From positions 1-37,073 of the forward strand of contig JAJFJS010000117.1 of NCBI GenBank assembly GCA_021773815.1: a DNA stretch of 37,073 nt, read 5' to 3'. Made by a program: the position numbers and the translations under genes. Positions within the stretch are counted from its first letter, which is position 1; each line of letters opens with the position of its first letter. The stretch comes from Gammaproteobacteria bacterium (GTDB lineage Bacteria > Pseudomonadota > Gammaproteobacteria > Steroidobacterales > GCA-2729495). This document shows, one piece after another, positions 1-34,057 of the stretch. The notes under the pieces are model-generated. The model had not been told where the DNA came from. It did not search any database and saw nothing but the letters and a program-made list of their open reading frames with translations.

Positions 1-372
1 GAAGGACCGAAGGGCGGGCCCGGCATGCGCGAGATGCTGAGTCCGACGAGCGCGATCATGGGCAAGGGGCTCGGTGACAAGGTGGCGCTGATCACCGACG
101 GTCGATTCTCCGGCGGCAGCCATGGCTTCGTCGTCGGTCACGTCACGCCCGAGGCCGCCGTCGGCGGACCGATCGCTCTGATCGAGGACGGTGACCGGAT
201 CACGATCGATGCGGAGACGCGTGTGATCGACGTCGATCTTTCGGCCGACGAACTCGCGCGCCGCCGGGCGGCCTGGCAGGCGCCTGTGAAGAATGAGAAG
301 TCCGGTACGCTGCGCAAGTACGCCGCGCTGGTCAGCTCCGCTTCGGAAGGCGCCGTGACGACCAAATTCTGA
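1..372 (+). CDS. ilvD: Dihydroxy-acid dehydratase, C-terminal fragment
   Basis: This is the last 123 codons of a gene cut by the left edge of the window. IlvD is the Fe-S dehydratase that makes 2-keto acids from dihydroxy acids in valine, isoleucine and leucine synthesis. The visible part has the family's C-terminal signature: GPGMREML, then [22 protein letters not shown], here read as the stretch around residues 20-50 of the fragment, and a LIEDGD/TID segment before the end. The reading frame is open from base 1, so the start lies outside. It precedes the lysine-pathway gene on the same strand but is separated from it by a promoter and terminator, so the two are probably not one transcript. 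Call is from motif recognition; the alternative 6-phosphogluconate dehydratase (Edd) is less likely in a branched-chain context. Confidence 0.93.
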
Positions 373-394: not shown

Positions 395-423
395 TTGACT
401 TGACGGCCGGCATTCGGTCTACT
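395..423 (+). promoter_or_regulatory. Probable sigma-70 promoter of the lysine fusion gene
   Basis: TTGACT at 395-400 (5 of 6 to consensus) and TCTACT at 418-423 (4 of 6) are separated by exactly 17 bases. The expected transcription start is at about 430-431, directly at an ATG that opens a short frame. The promoter lies upstream of an intrinsic terminator that stands before the structural gene, which is the layout of a transcription attenuator. Confidence 0.55.
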
Positions 424-430
424 CTCGCGC

Positions 431-520
431 ATGTGTCATTCTCCGCAGCACAAAGGCGAAAGCATGAAGCGCAAGACGGACAGCGTCGGGCGAGGTGCTG
501 CGGGTGTGAGTGACTGTTAG
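431..520 (+). CDS. Candidate attenuator leader peptide (Lys-containing, 29 aa)
   Basis: A short frame runs from ATG 431 to TAG 518-520. An in-frame internal ATG at 464 (giving 18 residues, beginning MKRKTD) has an AAAGG at 452-456 seven bases upstream, so initiation may be at either ATG. Lysine codons are residues 8, 13 and 15 of the long form. A ribosome stalled there would leave bases 500-504 (GCGGG) free to pair with the 5' arm of the downstream terminator (GCCCGC, 548-553); a ribosome reaching the stop would cover 500-504 and let the terminator form. The gene controlled makes lysine, which fits. The lysine content is modest, so this is an inference, not a certain leader. Confidence 0.4.
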   Translation: MCHSPQHKGESMKRKTDSVGRGAAGVSDC

Positions 521-544
521 CCGACAGCACACCTGAAACAACCG

Positions 545-580
545 AAAGCCCGCGACGGTCGGACCGAAGCGGGCTTTTTT
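545..580 (+). terminator. Intrinsic terminator / attenuator stem before the lysine gene
   Basis: AAAGCCCGC (545-553) pairs with GCGGGCTTT (569-577); an inner CGGT/ACCG stem (556-559, 563-566) closes the loop, and the stem ends in six T residues (575-580). A competing pairing of GCGGG (500-504) with GCCCGC (548-553) would act as antiterminator. TCCGCAGC (442-449) can also pair with GCTGCGGG (497-504), which would favour termination when the leader is not translated. It could instead be only the end of the ilvD transcript, but the promoter at 395-423 lies upstream of it. Confidence 0.75.
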
Positions 581-622
581 GTGTCGGGCCGCCATCACGG
601 CGCAATCGGGTCGAAAATCAGC

Positions 623-3253
623 ATGATGAAAACCATACACGAAGGGACTTTTCCGCCGGTTACGGCGACGGGCGACGACGGTCACCGCTGGCTCGTCATG
701 AAGTTCGGCGGCACGAGCGTTGCCTCGGCCGAACGATGGGCGACGATCCGTGACCTGGTCTGCGAGCGACAGGCAGCAGGGTATCGGCCGGTGGTCGTGC
801 ATTCGGCGCTCGCGACGGTGTCGAATCGTTTGCAGACGGCGCTCGATGCGGCGGTTGCCGGCGATTTTCGCCAGCCTTATGACGACATCGTCGCGGCGCA
901 TGCGCGGTTGGCATCCGAACTCGGGCTCGATGCCACGGAACTGCTGGGCGACGATCTCGGCGATCTGGAGCAGATGCTGGCCGGCATTCGCCTGATCCGG
1001 GAGGTCAGCCCGCGCATCCAGGTCAAGGTCATGGCGCTCGGCGAATTGATGGCGACGAAGCTCGGCGCTGCCTACCTGCGTTCCCAGGGCATCCCGGTCG
1101 CGTGGACCGATGCCCGCGACGTGCTGCAGAGTGTCGACGTGCCGCAGGAACGCGAGCGCTCGCGATACCTGTCGGCATCCTGCGCTTTCGATGCCGATCC
1201 CGATATCCGCGCGCGCTTCGCGGCCACCGACGAGGTGATCCTGACGCAGGGATTCATTGCGCGGAACCCGCACGGGGAGAGTGTGCTGCTCGGCCGCGGC
1301 GGGTCGGATACGTCTGCGGCGTATATCGCGGCGAAGCTCGGTGCCGCCGGCCTCGAAATCTGGACGGACGTACCCGGGATGTTCAGCGCGAATCCGCGCA
1401 CCGTGAGCGGGGCGCGGTTGCTCAAGGTGCTGAGCTACGAAGAAGCGCAGGAAATCGCGTCGACCGGCGGCTCGGTGCTGCATCCGCGATGCATTCGGCC
1501 GGTGCGGATGCACGGCATCCCGCTGCGGGTGCGTTGCACGTCGCAGCCGGAGCTGGATGGGACGTTGATCAGCGATTATCCGGGCGGCGATGCGCCCGCG
1601 GTCAAGGCGATTTCGAGTCGCAAGGGCATCTCGGTCGTGTCGATGGAAACGGTCGGTATGTGGCGTGAGGTCGGGTTCCTGACCGAGGCGTTCCGCTGTT
1701 TCAGCGACATGGGCCTGTCGATCGACCTCGTGTCCACGGCGGAGAGCAATGTAACCGTGACGCTGGATACGGGGCTGGAGGCCATTGACAGCGGCACGCT
1801 GGCCCGCCTGCGCCAATCGCTGGAACGGATGTGTCGGGTCCGGATCATCGAGAATGCCGAGGTCGTCAGCCTCGTCGGCCAGAAGATTCGGGCGATGCTG
1901 CACGAGATCGGGCCGGCACTCGCTGTTTTTGCCGAACAGCGGATTCACCTGGTCAGCCAGGCGGCCAGCGACCTGAACCTGAGTTTTGTCGTTGACGAAG
2001 GGCAGGCGCATCGGTTGATCAAGCAGCTGCACGGCGACCTCGTGCGGCCGGCGGCCTTCGACACCGTGTTCGGGCCGACCTGGACCGAACTGCAGGCCGC
2101 GGATGCGCCGGCGCCGGTCGTCGTTGATCCGTGGTGGGTCCGCAAGCGCGACCAATTGCTGCAAATCGCCGGCGAAGAGCGGTCATCCTATGTCTACGAT
2201 CTCGATTCGGTGCGCGGCGCCTGCGAGCGGCTGCGCGCGATGGAGAATATCGACCGGGTGTTCTATGCGATCAAGGCCAACAGCCATCCCGATGTGCTGC
2301 ACACGGTCGAGGCCTCGGGCATCAATTTCGAATGCGTATCGCCGGGGGAGGTTGCGCGTGTCCTGACGCTGTTCCCCGAAGTGGACCGGCAGCGCATCTT
2401 GTTCACGCCGAATTTTGCGCCGCGCGCCGAATACGAACAGGCGCTGGTGCAGGGGATCTGGGTCACACTCGACAACCTGCATCCGCTGAAGGAATGGGGC
2501 GAGATATTCCGCGGTCACGAGGTCTTCCTGCGGCTCGATACCGGCCAGGGCAGGGGGCATCACGAACATGTGCGCACGGCCGGCGTGCACTCGAAGTTCG
2601 GCATCCCGCTGTTTGAACTCGATGAGGTTCGCGAATTGGCGGCACGCCACGGCGTGCGGATCGTCGGTCTGCACGCGCATACCGGCAGCGGTATTCTGCA
2701 GGCCGATAACTGGCGGGACGTGGCCGCGCGGTTGGTCGAAGTGGCGCAGTCATTCCCGGACGTTGCCCGGCTCGACCTCGGCGGTGGGCTGGGTGTGCCC
2801 GAAAAACCCGGCCAGGACGTGCTGGATATCGCGGCGCTGAATGCCAGCGTCGCCGAGTTGAAGGCCGAGTACCCGCAGTACGAATTGTGGCTGGAGCCGG
2901 GACGCTACATCGTGGCCCAGGCCGGCGTTCTGTTGACCGCGGTAACGCAGATCAAGGGCAAGACCGGCGTCCAGTATGTCGGCGTCAGCACGGGTATGAA
3001 CTCGCTGATCCGGCCCGCGTTGTACGGGGCCTACCACGAGATCGCGAACCTGACGCGTCTCGGTGCGGTGCCGGACCAGGTCGTCAATGTTGTCGGGCCC
3101 ATCTGCGAGACCGGCGACAAGCTCGGTACCGACCGGTTGTTGCCGACGTGCAGCGAGGGCGATGTCCTGCTGGTCGCCAATGCCGGCGCCTACGGTCATG
3201 TCATGAGTTCCAACTACAACCTCCGCGAACCCGCCCGGGAGGTGACGATTTAG
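623..3253 (+). CDS. Bifunctional aspartate kinase / diaminopimelate decarboxylase
   Basis: A single 876-residue chain carries the first and last enzymes of lysine synthesis. The N-terminal half is a monofunctional-type aspartate kinase: KFGGTSVAS near residue 27, LGRGGSDTSA for the nucleotide site, followed by ACT-type regulatory segments around residues 310-460, so feedback inhibition is likely. The C-terminal half, from about residue 500, is a PLP decarboxylase of the LysA/alanine-racemase fold: FYAIKANSHP with the Schiff-base lysine, GLHAHTGSG, DLGGGLGVPE, LEPGRY and PICETGD with the partner-active-site cysteine. The frame extends to GTG 581, but that codon abuts the terminator T-tract and has no Shine-Dalgarno; I chose ATG 623 (ATG 626 is equally possible). 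The same fusion is known from Xanthomonadales. Located behind an apparent Lys attenuator. Confidence 0.95.
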   Translation: MMKTIHEGTFPPVTATGDDGHRWLVMKFGGTSVASAERWATIRDLVCERQAAGYRPVVVHSALATVSNRLQTALDAAVAGDFRQPYDDIVAAHARLASELGLDATELLGDDLGDLEQMLAGIRLIREVSPRIQVKVMALGELMATKLGAAYLRSQGIPVAWTDARDVLQSVDVPQERERSRYLSASCAFDADPDIRARFAATDEVILTQGFIARNPHGESVLLGRGGSDTSAAYIAAKLGAAGLEIWTDVPGMFSANPRTVSGARLLKVLSYEEAQEIASTGGSVLHPRCIRPVRMHGIPLRVRCTSQPELDGTLISDYPGGDAPAVKAISSRKGISVVSMETVGMWREVGFLTEAFRCFSDMGLSIDLVSTAESNVTVTLDTGLEAIDSGTLARLRQSLERMCRVRIIENAEVVSLVGQKIRAMLHEIGPALAVFAEQRIHLVSQAASDLNLSFVVDEGQAHRLIKQLHGDLVRPAAFDTVFGPTWTELQAADAPAPVVVDPWWVRKRDQLLQIAGEERSSYVYDLDSVRGACERLRAMENIDRVFYAIKANSHPDVLHTVEASGINFECVSPGEVARVLTLFPEVDRQRILFTPNFAPRAEYEQALVQGIWVTLDNLHPLKEWGEIFRGHEVFLRLDTGQGRGHHEHVRTAGVHSKFGIPLFELDEVRELAARHGVRIVGLHAHTGSGILQADNWRDVAARLVEVAQSFPDVARLDLGGGLGVPEKPGQDVLDIAALNASVAELKAEYPQYELWLEPGRYIVAQAGVLLTAVTQIKGKTGVQYVGVSTGMNSLIRPALYGAYHEIANLTRLGAVPDQVVNVVGPICETGDKLGTDRLLPTCSEGDVLLVANAGAYGHVMSSNYNLREPAREVTI

Positions 3254-9837: not shown

Positions 9838-10736
9838 GCGAGCATCTTCTCGACCGGGACGACGAGGATCGAACTCGCGCCGACATCCTTGAGCGCCTCG
9901 AGGGTCTCCCAGAACACGTTTTCACGGCAGACAACATGGATGGCGACACGGCCGTCGACGCCCTCGAGCGGCAGCACCGTCGGGGACTCCGCACCCGGCA
10001 GCAAGGCCCGGATCTCGGCCAGCGCCGATTTGGGGGCATGCATCATGATGTACTTGCTTTCGCGTACCTGCATGACCCCTTCAATCCGCTGGAGCAATCG
10101 GTTGACCCAGGCGGTCTTCTCTTCCGGTATGGCGACGGGGGTCCGGATCAGCATGCACTGACTCTCGAGGATCGTCTCGCCTTCGCGAATCTTGTTGGCA
10201 ATCATCGTCGTGCCGGTCGAAACGAGATCGCAGATTACGTCGGCGCGGCCGAGACTCGGGGCGATCTCCACGGCGCCGGAAAACTCCACGACATCGGCGC
10301 TGATGTCGTTGCGTTTCAGGTAGTCGCGCACCGTGAACGGATAGCTCGTGGCGATCGTCGCCCCGTCGAGTTCGGTGATGGCCTGCCTGGCACCGGTCTC
10401 CGGGTAGCCGAACGCAAGCCGGCAGTGCCCGTAGTCGAGCCGACAGACCTCGGTGTACGGCGCCATGATGCCGTCGCAGCCGTACTCGAGGCGCTTTTCC
10501 TCGATAATATTAAGCCCGGCGATGCCAAGATCGCAGACATCGTCGCGCACCAGGCCCGGAATATCGTCGTCGCGCACGAACAGCAGATCGATCGGCATGT
10601 TTTCGCCATAACCGATCAGCTGGTCGCGGCCGCGGGTGTATTTCAGGCCGCAGCGTTCCAGCAGGTCGAGTGAGTGCTCGGTCAGGCGGCCCGATTTCTG
10701 GATCGCAATCTTGATTCGGGTCTGTTTGTCGATCAT
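9834..10736 (-). CDS. hisG: ATP phosphoribosyltransferase, long form
   Basis: HisG condenses ATP with PRPP and commits carbon to histidine. The 300-residue protein is the long type with its own C-terminal regulatory domain. The N-terminal catalytic part begins IKIAIQKSGRL and includes DLVSTGTTM, the PRPP loop. The last 80 residues (from about MMHAPKSALAEI to the VVPVEKMLA end) form the ACT-like histidine-binding domain, so no HisZ is needed and feedback inhibition by histidine is expected. The frame is open further upstream. I choose ATG 10736 because it overlaps the upstream gene's TGA in an ATGA junction and matches the family's N-terminus. Confidence 0.97.
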   Translation of the reverse strand: MIDKQTRIKIAIQKSGRLTEHSLDLLERCGLKYTRGRDQLIGYGENMPIDLLFVRDDDIPGLVRDDVCDLGIAGLNIIEEKRLEYGCDGIMAPYTEVCRLDYGHCRLAFGYPETGARQAITELDGATIATSYPFTVRDYLKRNDISADVVEFSGAVEIAPSLGRADVICDLVSTGTTMIANKIREGETILESQCMLIRTPVAIPEEKTAWVNRLLQRIEGVMQVRESKYIMMHAPKSALAEIRALLPGAESPTVLPLEGVDGRVAIHVVCRENVFWETLEALKDVGASSILVVPVEKMLA

Positions 10737-11047
10737 TCGTTCGTTTTCCTGAGTCTGGCCAGCGCTGTTCGATAGCCGCCGGTGCCGTCCGTGAGACAAC
10801 GCGCGACCCGGCCGATCGTCGTGACGCTCACGCCGGTCTGCTCGTGTATCGCCCGATAGGTCAGACCCTCGGCCAGCAGTTCGACGACGGCCCAGCGGTC
10901 TTTCATGGCCTGCAATTCAGCAGGCGTGCACAAATCATGAAAAAACCCACGGAGTTCGGCCGTGGTTTCCAGGCTGAGCAGTGCGCTGAACAGCTCGTCT
11001 TCGGCGGCGACTTCCTGCCGCTGATTCAATATCCGGTGATCTTTCAT
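10733..11047 (-). CDS. TrpR/YerC-family regulator heading the his operon
   Basis: A 104-residue all-helical protein of the TrpR/YerC-YecD family. The helix-turn-helix is in the middle to C-terminal part: TPAELQAMKDRWAVV, then LTYRAIHEQTGVSVTTIGRV (about residues 63-82), which resembles the TrpR reading head. It is the first gene of the his operon and overlaps hisG by four bases. Family members next to his genes have been proposed as histidine-responsive repressors (called HisR in some comparative studies). That function is inference here. A palindrome close to the TrpR operator consensus sits just upstream of its own start, so autoregulation of the whole operon is likely. No histidine-rich leader peptide is visible, which fits repression rather than attenuation. 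Confidence 0.88.
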   Translation of the reverse strand: MKDHRILNQRQEVAAEDELFSALLSLETTAELRGFFHDLCTPAELQAMKDRWAVVELLAEGLTYRAIHEQTGVSVTTIGRVARCLTDGTGGYRTALARLRKTNE

Positions 11048-30107: not shown

Positions 30108-32168
30108 ATGAGTTACCGTCTTGGCGTAGATGTCGGTGGTACGTTTACCGACCTGCTGTTGATCAGCGAGGAAACGGGAGAAACGTTTACCGCGAAGGTC
30201 CCGTCAACGCCCGAAGATTCATCGATCGGTGTGTTGAACGGCGTGGCTCGAATCTGTGACGAGTCAGGCGTCGATCCGGCCAAAATCAAACGCGTCATGC
30301 ACGGCACGACCGTGGCAACCAATGCGGTGCTGCAGGGCAAGGGAGCGAAGGTTGGTCTCGTGACGACGCGCGGCTACGAACAGACCCTTCAGGTGGCGCG
30401 GTCGTTCTGTCCGGGCGGACTTGGCGGCTGGGTGACCTTCATCAAGAATCCCCTGCTGGCGCCGCTCGAATACACTATCGGCGCGGACGAGCGCATCGGC
30501 GCAACGGGCGACATCGTCCGCGAACTGGACGAAGAGCAGTTACGCCGGGATCTCGAGAAACTGAAGGCGTCGGGCGCAATTGAGGCGCTGACGATCTGCT
30601 TCATAAACGCCTACATCAATGCGGAGCACGAGAAGAAGGCGGCGGCCATCGCTCGCGAGGTATTCAGCGGTATGCCGATCTCTGTCTCCAGCGAGGTGGT
30701 GCCGGAAATGCAGGAATACGAGCGGACAGAGACGACGGTCATGAACTCGTACGTGCGGCCCGAAATGCAGAGGTACATCGACAACCTGCAGGCGGCGCTC
30801 AATAAACGCATGGGTGACGATTTGCTGCTGTCGCTCCTGCGCAGTGACGGCGGACTGGCGTCTGCCCGGTCAGCGGCAGATTCGCCGGTCAATATGCTGA
30901 TGTCCGGTCCCGCCGGCGGCGTCACGGGGGCAATCTATTTCTGCAGCCGCTCCGGCTTCGACGATATCCTGACGTTCGATATGGGCGGTACGTCGACCGA
31001 TGTCGCCCTGATCCAGAATTCCAAGGCGCGCGTGCGTCGCGAGACCTTTGTCGGTGATGTAAAGGTCCGGGCGCCGTCCGTCGACGTGCGCACGGTCGGT
31101 GCCGGCGGTGGATCTGTTGCGTTCGTGCCGGAGCTCACCGGGGCGCTGCGCGTCGGACCGGAATCGGCCGGGGCCGTGCCGGGGCCGGCTGCGTACATGA
31201 AGGGCGGCGAGAAGCCGACCGTTTGTGACGCGAACGTCGTGCTTGGTTACCTGCCGTCCGATGTGCAACTCGGCGGCAAGATGGAAATCAGCAAGGAAGC
31301 GGCCGAAACCGCCGTGCAGACGATAGCCGACGCGCTCGGCATCGGTTTGCTTGAGGCGGCCGAGGGCATCATCAAGGTCGTCAACGAGTCGATGTTCGGG
31401 GCTCTGCGGCTCGTCTCGGTCGAACAGGGATACGACCCGCGCGATTTCTCGCTCGTCTGCTTCGGCGGCGCCGGGCCGCTGCACGCGAACGCAATGGGTA
31501 TCCTGACCGATTCGTGGCCGGTCATCATTCCGCCCGGTCCGGGTGTTTTGTGCGCCTACGGCGACGCGACAACGACGGTGCAGAACGAGGCAACGCGCAC
31601 CTATATCAGGATGGCCGGGGATACCACGACCGAACAATTGCTCGACGATCTGCGCGAACTTCATGAGCGCGCCGCCGAGTCGCTGATCGAGGATGGAATC
31701 GCCAAGGAAGATTTTGAGGTCGTTTATCAGGCCGACGTCCGTTACGCCGGTCAGGCTTTTGAGCTGACGCTGGATTTCACTGCGGACGAGTTGAAGAGCA
31801 AGGGGATCGCGGCTGTCACCGACCAGTTCGATACCGAGCACGATCAATTGTTCAGCTTCAAACTCGGCGACGGCCACGAGATCCTGATGATTCGTGCTGT
31901 CGTGAAGGCAAAGGCGACAGATGTTGCGCATCGTGAAGTCGGCTCGGCCGGTGCGGCGCTTGCCGATTGCGTTATTCACGAGTCACGATTTCACTACGAG
32001 GGCAATTGGTACGGATCGCCGCTCTACGATCGGACCAAACTGCATGAGGGAATCGTCGTGCCGGGGCCGGCAATCGTCATGGAAATGGATTCGACAACGG
32101 TCATCCTGCCGGGGCATGAAGCCAAGGTCGACAGGATCGGCAACCTGTTGATCAATCCGAGCAAGTAA
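30108..32168 (+). CDS. Hydantoinase/oxoprolinase subunit A
   Basis: The 686-residue ATP-binding subunit of an HyuA-type enzyme. It has an actin-like ATPase fold: GVDVGGTFTDLLL (residues 6-18), HGTTVATNAVL, SDGGLASA, MSGPAGGVTGA, FDMGGTSTDVALI and CFGGAGPLHA. Relatives open hydantoins or 5-oxoproline with ATP, or carboxylate acetone and acetophenone as parts of larger carboxylases. No small extra subunit typical of acetone carboxylase gamma is nearby, which slightly favours an amidohydrolase. AAGG stands seven bases before the ATG. It is 17 bases upstream of its partner B subunit. Confidence 0.9.
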   Translation: MSYRLGVDVGGTFTDLLLISEETGETFTAKVPSTPEDSSIGVLNGVARICDESGVDPAKIKRVMHGTTVATNAVLQGKGAKVGLVTTRGYEQTLQVARSFCPGGLGGWVTFIKNPLLAPLEYTIGADERIGATGDIVRELDEEQLRRDLEKLKASGAIEALTICFINAYINAEHEKKAAAIAREVFSGMPISVSSEVVPEMQEYERTETTVMNSYVRPEMQRYIDNLQAALNKRMGDDLLLSLLRSDGGLASARSAADSPVNMLMSGPAGGVTGAIYFCSRSGFDDILTFDMGGTSTDVALIQNSKARVRRETFVGDVKVRAPSVDVRTVGAGGGSVAFVPELTGALRVGPESAGAVPGPAAYMKGGEKPTVCDANVVLGYLPSDVQLGGKMEISKEAAETAVQTIADALGIGLLEAAEGIIKVVNESMFGALRLVSVEQGYDPRDFSLVCFGGAGPLHANAMGILTDSWPVIIPPGPGVLCAYGDATTTVQNEATRTYIRMAGDTTTEQLLDDLRELHERAAESLIEDGIAKEDFEVVYQADVRYAGQAFELTLDFTADELKSKGIAAVTDQFDTEHDQLFSFKLGDGHEILMIRAVVKAKATDVAHREVGSAGAALADCVIHESRFHYEGNWYGSPLYDRTKLHEGIVVPGPAIVMEMDSTTVILPGHEAKVDRIGNLLINPSK

Positions 32169-32185
32169 GGAAGAGGAGAAGCACA

Positions 32186-34057
32186 ATGCCAGCAAGAATT
32201 ATCGAGACCAACGATGCTCCTCTGAAGAAAGTAGAAGTGGAGGGCGTTACCGCCGACATCATCGAGAATGCCCTGAAGAATGCGCGTATCGAGATGGATG
32301 CCGTTCTGTTTCGTACGGCCATGTCGCCCGGCATCCGCGAGCAGGGCGACTGCTTCCCGATGATTGCCAACCGCGACGGCAAGATGGTGGTCGGACAGTT
32401 CGGTTCGTTCATAGGCCCGTTCATGGAAGCCTACGATGCAGAGATCGAGGAAGGCGACATTATCCTGACCAATGATCCCTACATGTGTAATGCGGCGGTG
32501 TCGCACCTGCCGGACTGGATCGTTCTGATGCCGGTGTTCAAGGACGGTCGGCATATCGCATGGACAGCCATGTTCGGTCACATGTCCGACAACGGTGGCA
32601 TGGTGCCGGGTTCCATTCCGATCAAGGCAACGACGATCTACCAGGAAGGCATCCGCATTCCGCCGACCAAGCTGTACAAGAAAGGGGAGCTGCAGAGCGA
32701 CGTTCTGGAGTTGATACTGCACAACGTGCGAACGTCGCAGTGGAATCGATTCGACCTGAACGCGCTCGTCGCCGCCTGCAGGACGGCCAGCCGTCGCTGT
32801 GTCGAGATGGCGAACCGCTTCGGCGACGATGTCCTGAACAGCGCCATGGACATCATGCTCGAGCGCAACTACAACGCGATGAAATTCATTATCCAGAATT
32901 TTATTCCGGAGGAGCCGCGCACCTTTGAGGACTACCTCTGCGATGACGGCATGGGCATGGGACCCTACAAGATCAAGTGCACTATGTGGCGCGAAGGCGA
33001 CGTCGCGATCTTTGACTTCGACGGAACCGATCCGCAGGCGCAGAGTTCGGTCAATTTCTACCTGAACGAAGACATGTTCAAGATGTTCTTCGGTTCGTTC
33101 ACGATCAATGTTGTCGACCCGCATATCGTATTCAATGACGGGTTCTACGATCTCGTGGATGTTCGCATTCCCGAGGGCACGCTGCTCAAGCCGAAGTTTC
33201 CGGCCGCGCTGTCCGGGCGCACCCATGCGCTGGGGCGCCTGTTTGACGTTTTGCAGGCGCTGCTCGGCTCGGGAGCGCCGGAGCAGATGCTCAATGCGGC
33301 CGGCTTTTCCGACTCGCCGCACCTGTTCTACTCAGGCTATGACAACCGCGAGGGCAAGAACGGTGAGTGGTTCCAGTTGTTTCAGATTGGCTTCGGCGGT
33401 ATACCCGGTCGGCCGATCGGTGACGGTCCGGACGGTCACTCACTGTGGCCTGGCTTTACGAACGTACCGAACGAGTTCATCGAGTCGTATTTTCCGCTGC
33501 GGATCGAACGCTACGAGACGATTCCGGACTCCGGGGGCGCCGGCCTGCATCGGGGCGGCAACGGTCTCAGCGTGGCCTACTGCTTCCTGGCAGACGGCGA
33601 CATCGCGATTCACGACGAACGTTGGCTGATGTATCCGTGGGGCGTCATGGGTGGCCAGGTCGGGCAGCGCTCGACGAAGCGGATCGTGCGCGTCGACGGC
33701 AGCGAGGAATGGCTGCCGTCGAAATGTGACGGCATCCCGGTCAAGACCGGAGACCTGCTGTATTTCAATACCTGGGGCGGCGGTGGCTGGGGCGATCCGC
33801 TCAAGCGCGATTCCGGGCTGGTGCTGGACGACGTCAGGCGCAATCTCGTGACCGTCGCGGGCGCCCGGGATTATGGTGTCGTGATCGTCGCCGGCGCCGT
33901 CGACGAAGCGGCGACCGGCAAACTGCGCGAGCAGATGCGCGCCGAGCGTGGCGACACGATACCGACCTTCAACATCGGCCCGTCGATCGACGAGATCCTG
34001 GCCAGGTGCAAGGAGGAGACCGGGCTGGACGCGCCCGTACCACCGGTATTCCGCTAG
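32186..34057 (+). CDS. Hydantoinase/oxoprolinase subunit B
   Basis: The 623-residue HyuB partner of the preceding gene. Recognisable segments are LFRTAMSPGIREQGDCF, DIILTNDPYMCNAAVSHLPD (about residues 90-110), IYQEGIRIPPTKLY, and a C-terminal LPSKCDGIPVKTGDLLYF followed by TWGGGGWGDPL, typical of the family. The motif that in many members reads NDPY-GG-THLPD here has MCNAAVSHLPD, so the active-site loop differs. Strong purine-rich ribosome site (GGAAGAGGAG). Substrate not inferable; see findings. Confidence 0.9.
   Translation: MPARIIETNDAPLKKVEVEGVTADIIENALKNARIEMDAVLFRTAMSPGIREQGDCFPMIANRDGKMVVGQFGSFIGPFMEAYDAEIEEGDIILTNDPYMCNAAVSHLPDWIVLMPVFKDGRHIAWTAMFGHMSDNGGMVPGSIPIKATTIYQEGIRIPPTKLYKKGELQSDVLELILHNVRTSQWNRFDLNALVAACRTASRRCVEMANRFGDDVLNSAMDIMLERNYNAMKFIIQNFIPEEPRTFEDYLCDDGMGMGPYKIKCTMWREGDVAIFDFDGTDPQAQSSVNFYLNEDMFKMFFGSFTINVVDPHIVFNDGFYDLVDVRIPEGTLLKPKFPAALSGRTHALGRLFDVLQALLGSGAPEQMLNAAGFSDSPHLFYSGYDNREGKNGEWFQLFQIGFGGIPGRPIGDGPDGHSLWPGFTNVPNEFIESYFPLRIERYETIPDSGGAGLHRGGNGLSVAYCFLADGDIAIHDERWLMYPWGVMGGQVGQRSTKRIVRVDGSEEWLPSKCDGIPVKTGDLLYFNTWGGGGWGDPLKRDSGLVLDDVRRNLVTVAGARDYGVVIVAGAVDEAATGKLREQMRAERGDTIPTFNIGPSIDEILARCKEETGLDAPVPPVFR

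Follow-up and report, generated by a model that had tools for sequence, protein, structure and literature searches.

A contig of a gammaproteobacterium of the order Steroidobacterales (JAJFJS010000117.1; the window, 37,073 nucleotides, is this contig in its entirety) begins inside ilvD and continues into a gene encoding a bifunctional aspartate kinase/diaminopimelate decarboxylase, the lysC-lysA fusion. The short region between these two genes is the subject of this analysis. It holds a promoter, a reading frame with lysine codons and an intrinsic terminator, which a first-pass annotation took for a leader-peptide attenuator of the lysine type. The coordinates and order given there for the parts, among them the motif GCGGG and the terminator, are exact, as is the count of three lysine codons in 29, and the same layout recurs in relatives. 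The parts are as follows:

1 to 372 (+): 3' end of ilvD (dihydroxy-acid dehydratase), truncated by the contig start; NF002068, 204.8 bits over 121 amino acids
395 to 423 (+): promoter, TTGACT (395-400), 17-nt spacer, TCTACT (418-423), read from the sequence; spacing the same in 12/12 leaders of the family
431 to 520 (+): leader reading frame of 29 codons, MCHSPQHKGESMKRKTDSVGRGAAGVSDC and a stop, likely leaderless; ATG 7 nt past the -10 element, in-frame lysine and Lys-Arg in relatives
443 to 451 (+): arm 1, CCGCAGCAC, partner of 495-503 in the minimum free energy fold (protector helix 1:2); weak signal in the family (p 0.045)
452 to 454 (+): lysine codon 8 (AAA), from the translation
467 to 475 (+): codons 13-15, Lys-Arg-Lys (AAG CGC AAG), which hold the Lys-Arg motif conserved in relatives
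495 to 504 (+): arm 2, GTGCTGCGGG, whose GCGGG (500-504) could form the antiterminator 2:3 with the terminator's CCCGC (549-553), from the sequence and the family pairing test
518 to 520 (+): leader stop codon, at which a terminating ribosome of usual footprint would cover arm 2
545 to 580 (+): intrinsic terminator, AAAGCCCGC...GCGGGCTTTTTT, in which AAAGCCCGC (545-553) pairs with GCGGGCTTT (569-577) ahead of a T-run (575-580), from sequence and fold
623 to 3253 (+): lysC-lysA fusion, ATG at 623; NF006515, 1220.1 bits against a cut-off of 802

Because the ATG of the leader lies 7 nt past the -10 element, the transcript is expected to start at or beside it, and the leader frame is probably leaderless. 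A simple consensus scanner called neither the promoter nor the terminator of the window, since its thresholds require A at the second position of the -10 element, where the window has C, and a loop of 3-8 nt, a length exceeded here. The transcript from 430 to 582 is predicted to fold at -65.8 kcal/mol, compared with -49.9 kcal/mol for shuffled sequences (z -4.46; 0 of 200 shuffles), and the predicted fold includes the terminator as well as a helix of 9 bp (443-451:495-503).

The element does not correspond to the lysine sensor that might be expected before such a gene. No match to the L-box (RF00168) was found in the window at the gathering score, nor in any of the 60 genomes compared, the window's own included, while 4 of 14 control genomes were positive; the earlier statement that no L-box is recognizable here was thus correct. 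The Rfam amino-acid leaders and the T-box likewise stay below their gathering scores in the window, with Trp_leader (RF00513) reaching 16.1 bits (E 1.1) where 41 are needed.

Lysine codons and pairing arms in related leaders

At E 0.001, matches to the fusion protein occur in 58 of the 60 genomes (the window's own among them), partial hits to other aspartate kinases and decarboxylases being counted too. At strict thresholds the fusion is present in 36/40 genomes of the window's family (f1) and in 185/246 genomes of the order. The region upstream of it was examined in 34 of the 36 f1 genomes (G032 and G061 were left out), and in every one of these ilvD lies directly upstream. Promoter, leader and a CCCGC...GCGGG terminator precede the fusion in 14 of the 34, including the window's own genome. 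The gap between ilvD and the fusion, measured to the site matching the start of the window protein, is 229-299 nt in these 14 and -18 to 75 nt in the 20 that have no CCCGC-type terminator. Two other families share the leader-peptide layout, with the same order of parts in 9/19 regions examined from f6 and 2/2 from f15. In Woeseiaceae (f7), the CCCGC...GCGGG terminator element is found in 42/43 regions, and it is found in none of 20 regions from f2, f4, f5, f11, f12 and f13 or of five class-level outgroups. The leader set left out three hairpins of f11 (L197 and L199, both with CCCG, and L201, without it) as well as hairpins that lack CCCG or whose distance to the matched gene start exceeds 150 nt. 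Twelve f1 leaders have a frame that starts with ATG, and in all 12 a TTGAC lies 17 nt ahead of the -10 element and the ATG 7-9 nt past it.

Conservation of the lysine codons, which the first-pass annotation had left to comparison with relatives, is borne out in these 12 leaders. Lysine accounts for 31 of their 300 in-frame codons (10.3%), with at least one in each leader, compared with 9/312 (2.9%) and 3/312 (1.0%) in the two other frames and a lysine share of 1.8% in fusion proteins taken from ten of the genomes. The excess has a binomial probability of 1.6e-14, and a Markov sequence null (mean 12.9) reaches it in 0/3000 cases; that the set shows zero in-frame stops holds by construction and carries no evidential weight. 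The f6 leaders follow the same pattern, with 20/215 lysine codons in frame versus 2/223 and 3/223 in the other frames.

The kind of residue that accompanies lysine is also conserved. A Lys-Arg pair is found in 11/12 f1 leaders and in 6/8 f6 leaders (residue shuffles: 0/20000 and 0.00065, respectively), and a ninth f6 leader (G090) likewise has one. Across the two families this pair is spelled in eight ways (AAGCGC, AAACGC, AAACGA, AAGCGA, AAACGG, AAGCGG, AAGCGT and AAGAGG), so that what is retained through varied codons is the amino acid pair rather than the RNA, and hence the frame appears to be translated. The two f15 leaders, MKLIITLIKKHKPAKPVLELF and MINIIKHKTKKPQPLNC, are rich in lysine without Lys-Arg (KKHKPAK, KHKTKK), which makes lysine itself the feature common to the families. 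A codon-position test, from which L140, L149, L163, L176, L161 and L145 were left out, gives the pattern of a coding frame in two pairs of leaders: L028/L045 (1, 4 and 11 changes; ratio 0.26 vs 2.73 and 0.83) and L029/L031 (4, 2 and 6 changes; ratio 0.29 vs 0.88 and 2.57).

The f6 leaders (L178, L179, L181, L183-L186 and L191) are in addition rich in methionine (11.2%) and threonine (10.7%), as in MAMTTKGKTTMTMAIGK, and five of the eight keep VPM ahead of the stop. Methionine and threonine belong to the aspartate family of amino acids, and these leaders may possibly sense members of that family jointly.

The pairing that was predicted from the window alone fares unevenly among relatives. Complementarity between arm 2 and the terminator (2:3) exceeds that of first-order shuffles with a combined p of 8.2e-5 in the 12 f1 leaders and 1.4e-9 in eight f6 leaders, and in 12/12 f1 leaders the first base of a GCGGG falls in the range from 21 nt upstream to 13 nt downstream of the leader stop codon. 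For the upstream protector helix (1:2) the signal is marginal in f1 (combined p 0.045) and does not extend to f6 (0.16). Within the window, the stretch 484-494 competes with 495-504 for the role of arm 2 and scores slightly higher.

A structured RNA at the same site in Woeseiaceae

In Woeseiaceae, the position occupied by the leader is taken by what appears to be a different kind of element, a covarying 89-nt RNA of three helices that precedes the lysC-lysA fusion or a stand-alone lysA (55 loci; e.g. L158:352-440, +, and L213:339-427, +). Its helices are P1 (CACCCACGUA:UGCGUGGGUG), P2 (GUGCC:GGCGC) and P3, a hairpin of highly variable sequence, and it also has an A-rich strand and the almost invariant GGCGCGCCAGAGG (CAGAGG). 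In a MAFFT alignment of 42 sequences, which was not fitted to a model although the structure was drawn from these same sequences, 96.6% of cells are paired, 12 of 21 pairs have changed on both sides and the score is 0.323, compared with 0.169 when shuffled (0/500) and at most 0.083 when the structure is slid. Addition of 13 loci gives 96.2% paired cells and 14/21 pairs changed on both sides (including two P2 pairs, by one sequence each), counts that lean towards the model because this 55-sequence alignment was fitted to it.

Searches with a model of this RNA (R1) hit 55 of 71 Woeseiaceae genomes with E of at most 0.5, and for 54 the value is no higher than 5.2e-11; seven of these 54 strong hits were left out of the locus set (G170, G172, G191, G195, G213, G215 and G614). 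Wider searches with R1 and R2 found one strong hit (G042) and two weak ones in 369 genomes of the class, and two weak ones in 398 of the phylum. Four weak hits from the search within Woeseiaceae gave no lysA or fusion match and lie in or beside long frames of other proteins. A comparison of eight of the 55 loci with Rfam gave no match at the gathering score and none better than E 1.7 at a loose setting, and no known Rfam leader was found at 14 f6 and f7 loci compared.

Forty-two of the 55 loci are silent on gene association, since they were collected as preceding the fusion. The 13 loci found through the RNA itself are more informative: ten precede a stand-alone lysA, two the fusion, and one (L216) neither. 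This last copy (G610:C65, 3561-3649, -; 68 bits) has a terminator, with no lysA or fusion in about 3.5 kb downstream. At another locus, before a stand-alone lysA (L219:324-388, +), P1, P2 and CAGAGG are kept and the P3 hairpin is absent, which hints that P3 is not essential.

A reading of the Woeseiaceae leaders as a conserved peptide (…MARQRCVGA…) was considered and discarded. Over the whole frame, changes are fewest at the third codon position (1721, 1938 and 1494), the codon-position ratio of 0.80 is no lower than that of a shifted frame (0.75), and 14 of 54 scored loci have no open frame with a start codon; L219 is outside this scoring, its match lacking the core pattern. Such a frame is missing in 7/9 loci with lysA only and in 6/44 fusion-linked loci. 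In the other 40 of the 54 (38/44 of those linked to the fusion), a start codon near the transcript start is kept (35 ATG, 3 GTG and 2 TTG), which is unexplained, as the frame has no coding signal.

Between the 3' strand of P1 (mostly GUGGGU) and the terminator's 5' arm, pairing is possible at four or more of six positions in 52 sequences, and at all six in 44. These counts cover the 52 correctly registered of 55 rows; in per-pair shuffles, which include the other three rows, one of the six pairs exceeds chance in Watson-Crick matches (0.006) and the other five vary too little to be informative. Formation of P1 would therefore free the terminator, as would be expected of a sensor that shuts its gene off with ligand bound. 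Judged from the comparison of sequences, the Woeseiaceae RNA is a candidate for a new lysine-sensing RNA, absent from Rfam among the loci compared. The window is not a member of this group: R1 has no hit over the whole window, and a broader model (R2) has none in positions 1-700 (L046) with filters off and E up to 10. The suggestion in the first-pass annotation that an RNA sensor of another kind might be at work thus finds no support in the window, while it apparently describes the same place in Woeseiaceae.

A proposed lysine switch and its alternatives

The attenuator reading is better supported by this comparison than it could be by a single sequence, and the element of the window is probably a ribosome-mediated attenuator of transcription, specific to lysine and with a leaderless leader peptide. 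From the parts and their recurrence, the in-frame enrichment of lysine, the retention of Lys-Arg through synonymous codons and the family-wide complementarity of arms 2 and 3, all of them directly evident in the sequences, we infer the start site, stalling, lysine sensing and direction of control as follows. Transcription would begin with the AUG at 431 or right beside it, and a ribosome would translate the 29-codon peptide, with lysine at codons 8, 13 and 15. When charged Lys-tRNA is scarce, the ribosome would stall in the first half of the leader and keep arm 1 (443-451) off arm 2 (495-504); the free arm 2 could then pair with the 5' arm of the terminator, allowing RNA polymerase to continue into the fusion gene. 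With lysine plentiful, the ribosome would reach the stop codon (518-520) and cover arm 2, and the terminator (545-580) would form. If the leader were not translated at all, helix 1:2 would form and the terminator would form as well. As LysA makes lysine, the leader codon matches the product of the pathway, and the sign of the control so proposed is right for feedback by lysine.

Several observations weigh against this reading. The element is missing from 20/34 f1 genomes, and two f1 leaders identical to each other (L025/L026) have the terminator, but they contain no lysine codon, and the ATG is missing from its expected site. The codon-position test is negative in the g4 trio of f1 (0.87 vs 0.93 and 0.79) and in the f6 pair L185/L186 (1.39 vs 2.04 and 0.23), and weak in five other f6 leaders (0.63 vs 0.99 and 0.78). 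The p values given above ignore the relatedness of the sequences. In addition to the marginal standing of helix 1:2 in f1 and its lack of support in f6, the window taken alone exceeds shuffles in neither pairing (2:3, p 0.26; 1:2, p 0.945 with automatically chosen arms). Arm 1 lies just upstream of the Lys-Arg-Lys codons and not on them, so that a stalled ribosome would block it less directly than in trp. Finally, the arginine beside lysine is conserved, yet simple sensing of lysine starvation has no need of it.

Some of these observations would be accommodated if the window carried a structured RNA sensor, either a riboswitch or a protein-binding RNA, with its reading frame incidental. The Woeseiaceae RNA, which covaries before the same gene at the same position and has no coding signal, provides a precedent, and the g4 trio without coding signal and the L025/L026 leaders without lysine codons point the same way. 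Neither R1 nor R2, however, matches the window or the given f1 and f6 leaders above chance, the window reaches the gathering score of no Rfam family, and retention of Lys-Arg through eight codon pairs speaks for conservation of amino acids, all of which makes this alternative rather unlikely. The conserved arginine (11/12 and 6/8), like the VPM near the stop in 5/8 f6 leaders, would find a place in a different mechanism, in which the ribosome is arrested by its own nascent product, the Lys-Arg peptide sensing lysine or some other metabolite from within the exit tunnel. Arrest of the ribosome by its nascent peptide is familiar from TnaC and SpeFL. By analogy with these, a peptide sensor is conceivable here; it is nevertheless improbable, because the f15 leaders are rich in lysine without Lys-Arg, some of the conservation in f6 may reflect RNA pairing, and early arrest by excess lysine would be predicted to free arm 2 and turn the genes on, which is opposite to what feedback requires.

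It could also be that no switch exists at this site: the hairpin would serve as the terminator of ilvD, and the fusion would depend on unregulated read-through or on a further promoter in 581-622, or else the transcript of 150 nt would be an independent small RNA. The terminator does sit between ilvD and the fusion, and against a second promoter in 581-622 stands only one negative consensus scan. Transcripts from the promoter at 395-423, which is upstream of the terminator, must on the other hand cross it to reach the fusion. Moreover, ilvD runs up to the fusion with no CCCGC-type terminator in 20/34 f1 genomes and thus generally needs none there, by which an ordinary ilvD terminator was ruled out. 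The complementarity of arm 2 and the lysine frame would also be left without explanation, and the absence of any switch is accordingly very improbable. The lysine attenuator thus stands as the preferred reading.

Known leaders and the significance of the element

Classical attenuators of Proteobacteria (thr, his, trp, leu, ilv and phe) resemble the element of the window in having codons for the amino acid that the pathway makes, an antiterminator in competition with a terminator, and a stop codon near the antiterminator arm. The window differs from them in the use of lysine, which is not among the amino acids listed for this mechanism, in a leader that begins at or next to the transcript end, and in the conserved Lys-Arg. 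Among the Escherichia coli attenuators, hisL has more regulatory codons than the window leader. The trpL leader of Sinorhizobium meliloti is likewise a leaderless leader peptide before a biosynthetic gene, according to the available part of PMC10117765, and differs from the window in its Trp codons and its lineage. The portion of that source at hand also describes SEP5 of S. meliloti, a small frame suggested to be a leader peptide, with lysine and threonine codons before an aspartate dehydrogenase gene tied to threonine and lysine synthesis. Unlike in the window, the gene is neither lysC nor lysA, the frame has six Thr and three Lys codons and is restricted to Sinorhizobium, and the same portion describes no attenuator.

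Other known elements at lysine genes are RNAs. The L-box resembles the element of the window in governing genes of lysine biosynthesis, mainly a single lysC in Gammaproteobacteria (PMC5584792, as far as its accessible text goes), and differs in being an RNA aptamer. The same text has it spanning gammaproteobacterial orders before lysC, yet none of the 60 genomes here has one. The Woeseiaceae RNA shares with the window its place before the fusion, a similar promoter and a CCCGC-type terminator, and differs as a three-helix structured RNA with no coding signal. The speF element of Alphaproteobacteria, before decarboxylases of COG0019, is an RNA of another kind, in which binding of lysine was not observed (available part of PMC1273637). 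In a survey of Actinobacteria (PMC1262725, in its accessible part), the L-box is assigned to lysine, and attenuators to histidine, threonine and phenylalanine, in other bacteria, and exchange of sensors at one gene is described for hisS in the accessible part of PMC2965389. No report of a lysine leader-peptide attenuator was found in the open-licence literature, and the word "lysine" was not found in the available part of PMC1183508.

Two further loci of the window may be recorded. A gene for a Trp-repressor-family protein (10733-11047, -; PF01371, 92.3 bits) lies in the his operon, directly ahead of hisG, and its product is likely a HisR/YerC-type regulator of histidine genes. At 30108-34057 (+) lies a pair of genes similar to those for the alpha and beta subunits of caprolactamase (NF050156, 534 bits, and NF050157, 208 bits, both below their cut-offs).

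The element of the window would represent an amino acid variant of a known attenuation mechanism, new as to lysine. If true, a lysine-codon attenuator adds an amino acid to the textbook mechanism, the accessible parts of PMC1262725 and PMC5584792 describing lysine genes as controlled by the L-box and assigning leader-peptide attenuation to other amino acids. More tentatively, and a little short of probable, the control site of lysC-lysA or lysA may have swapped sensors within one order, between a leaderless lysine attenuator in f1 and two further families and, in Woeseiaceae, an 89-nt RNA that would form a second natural class of lysine (or diaminopimelate) riboswitch with the 3' strand of P1 as its antiterminator arm. 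The Woeseiaceae RNA is directly open to tests of lysine binding, and if a peptide sensor has given way to a structured RNA before one and the same gene in relatives, the exchange of an attenuator's sensor could be studied directly.

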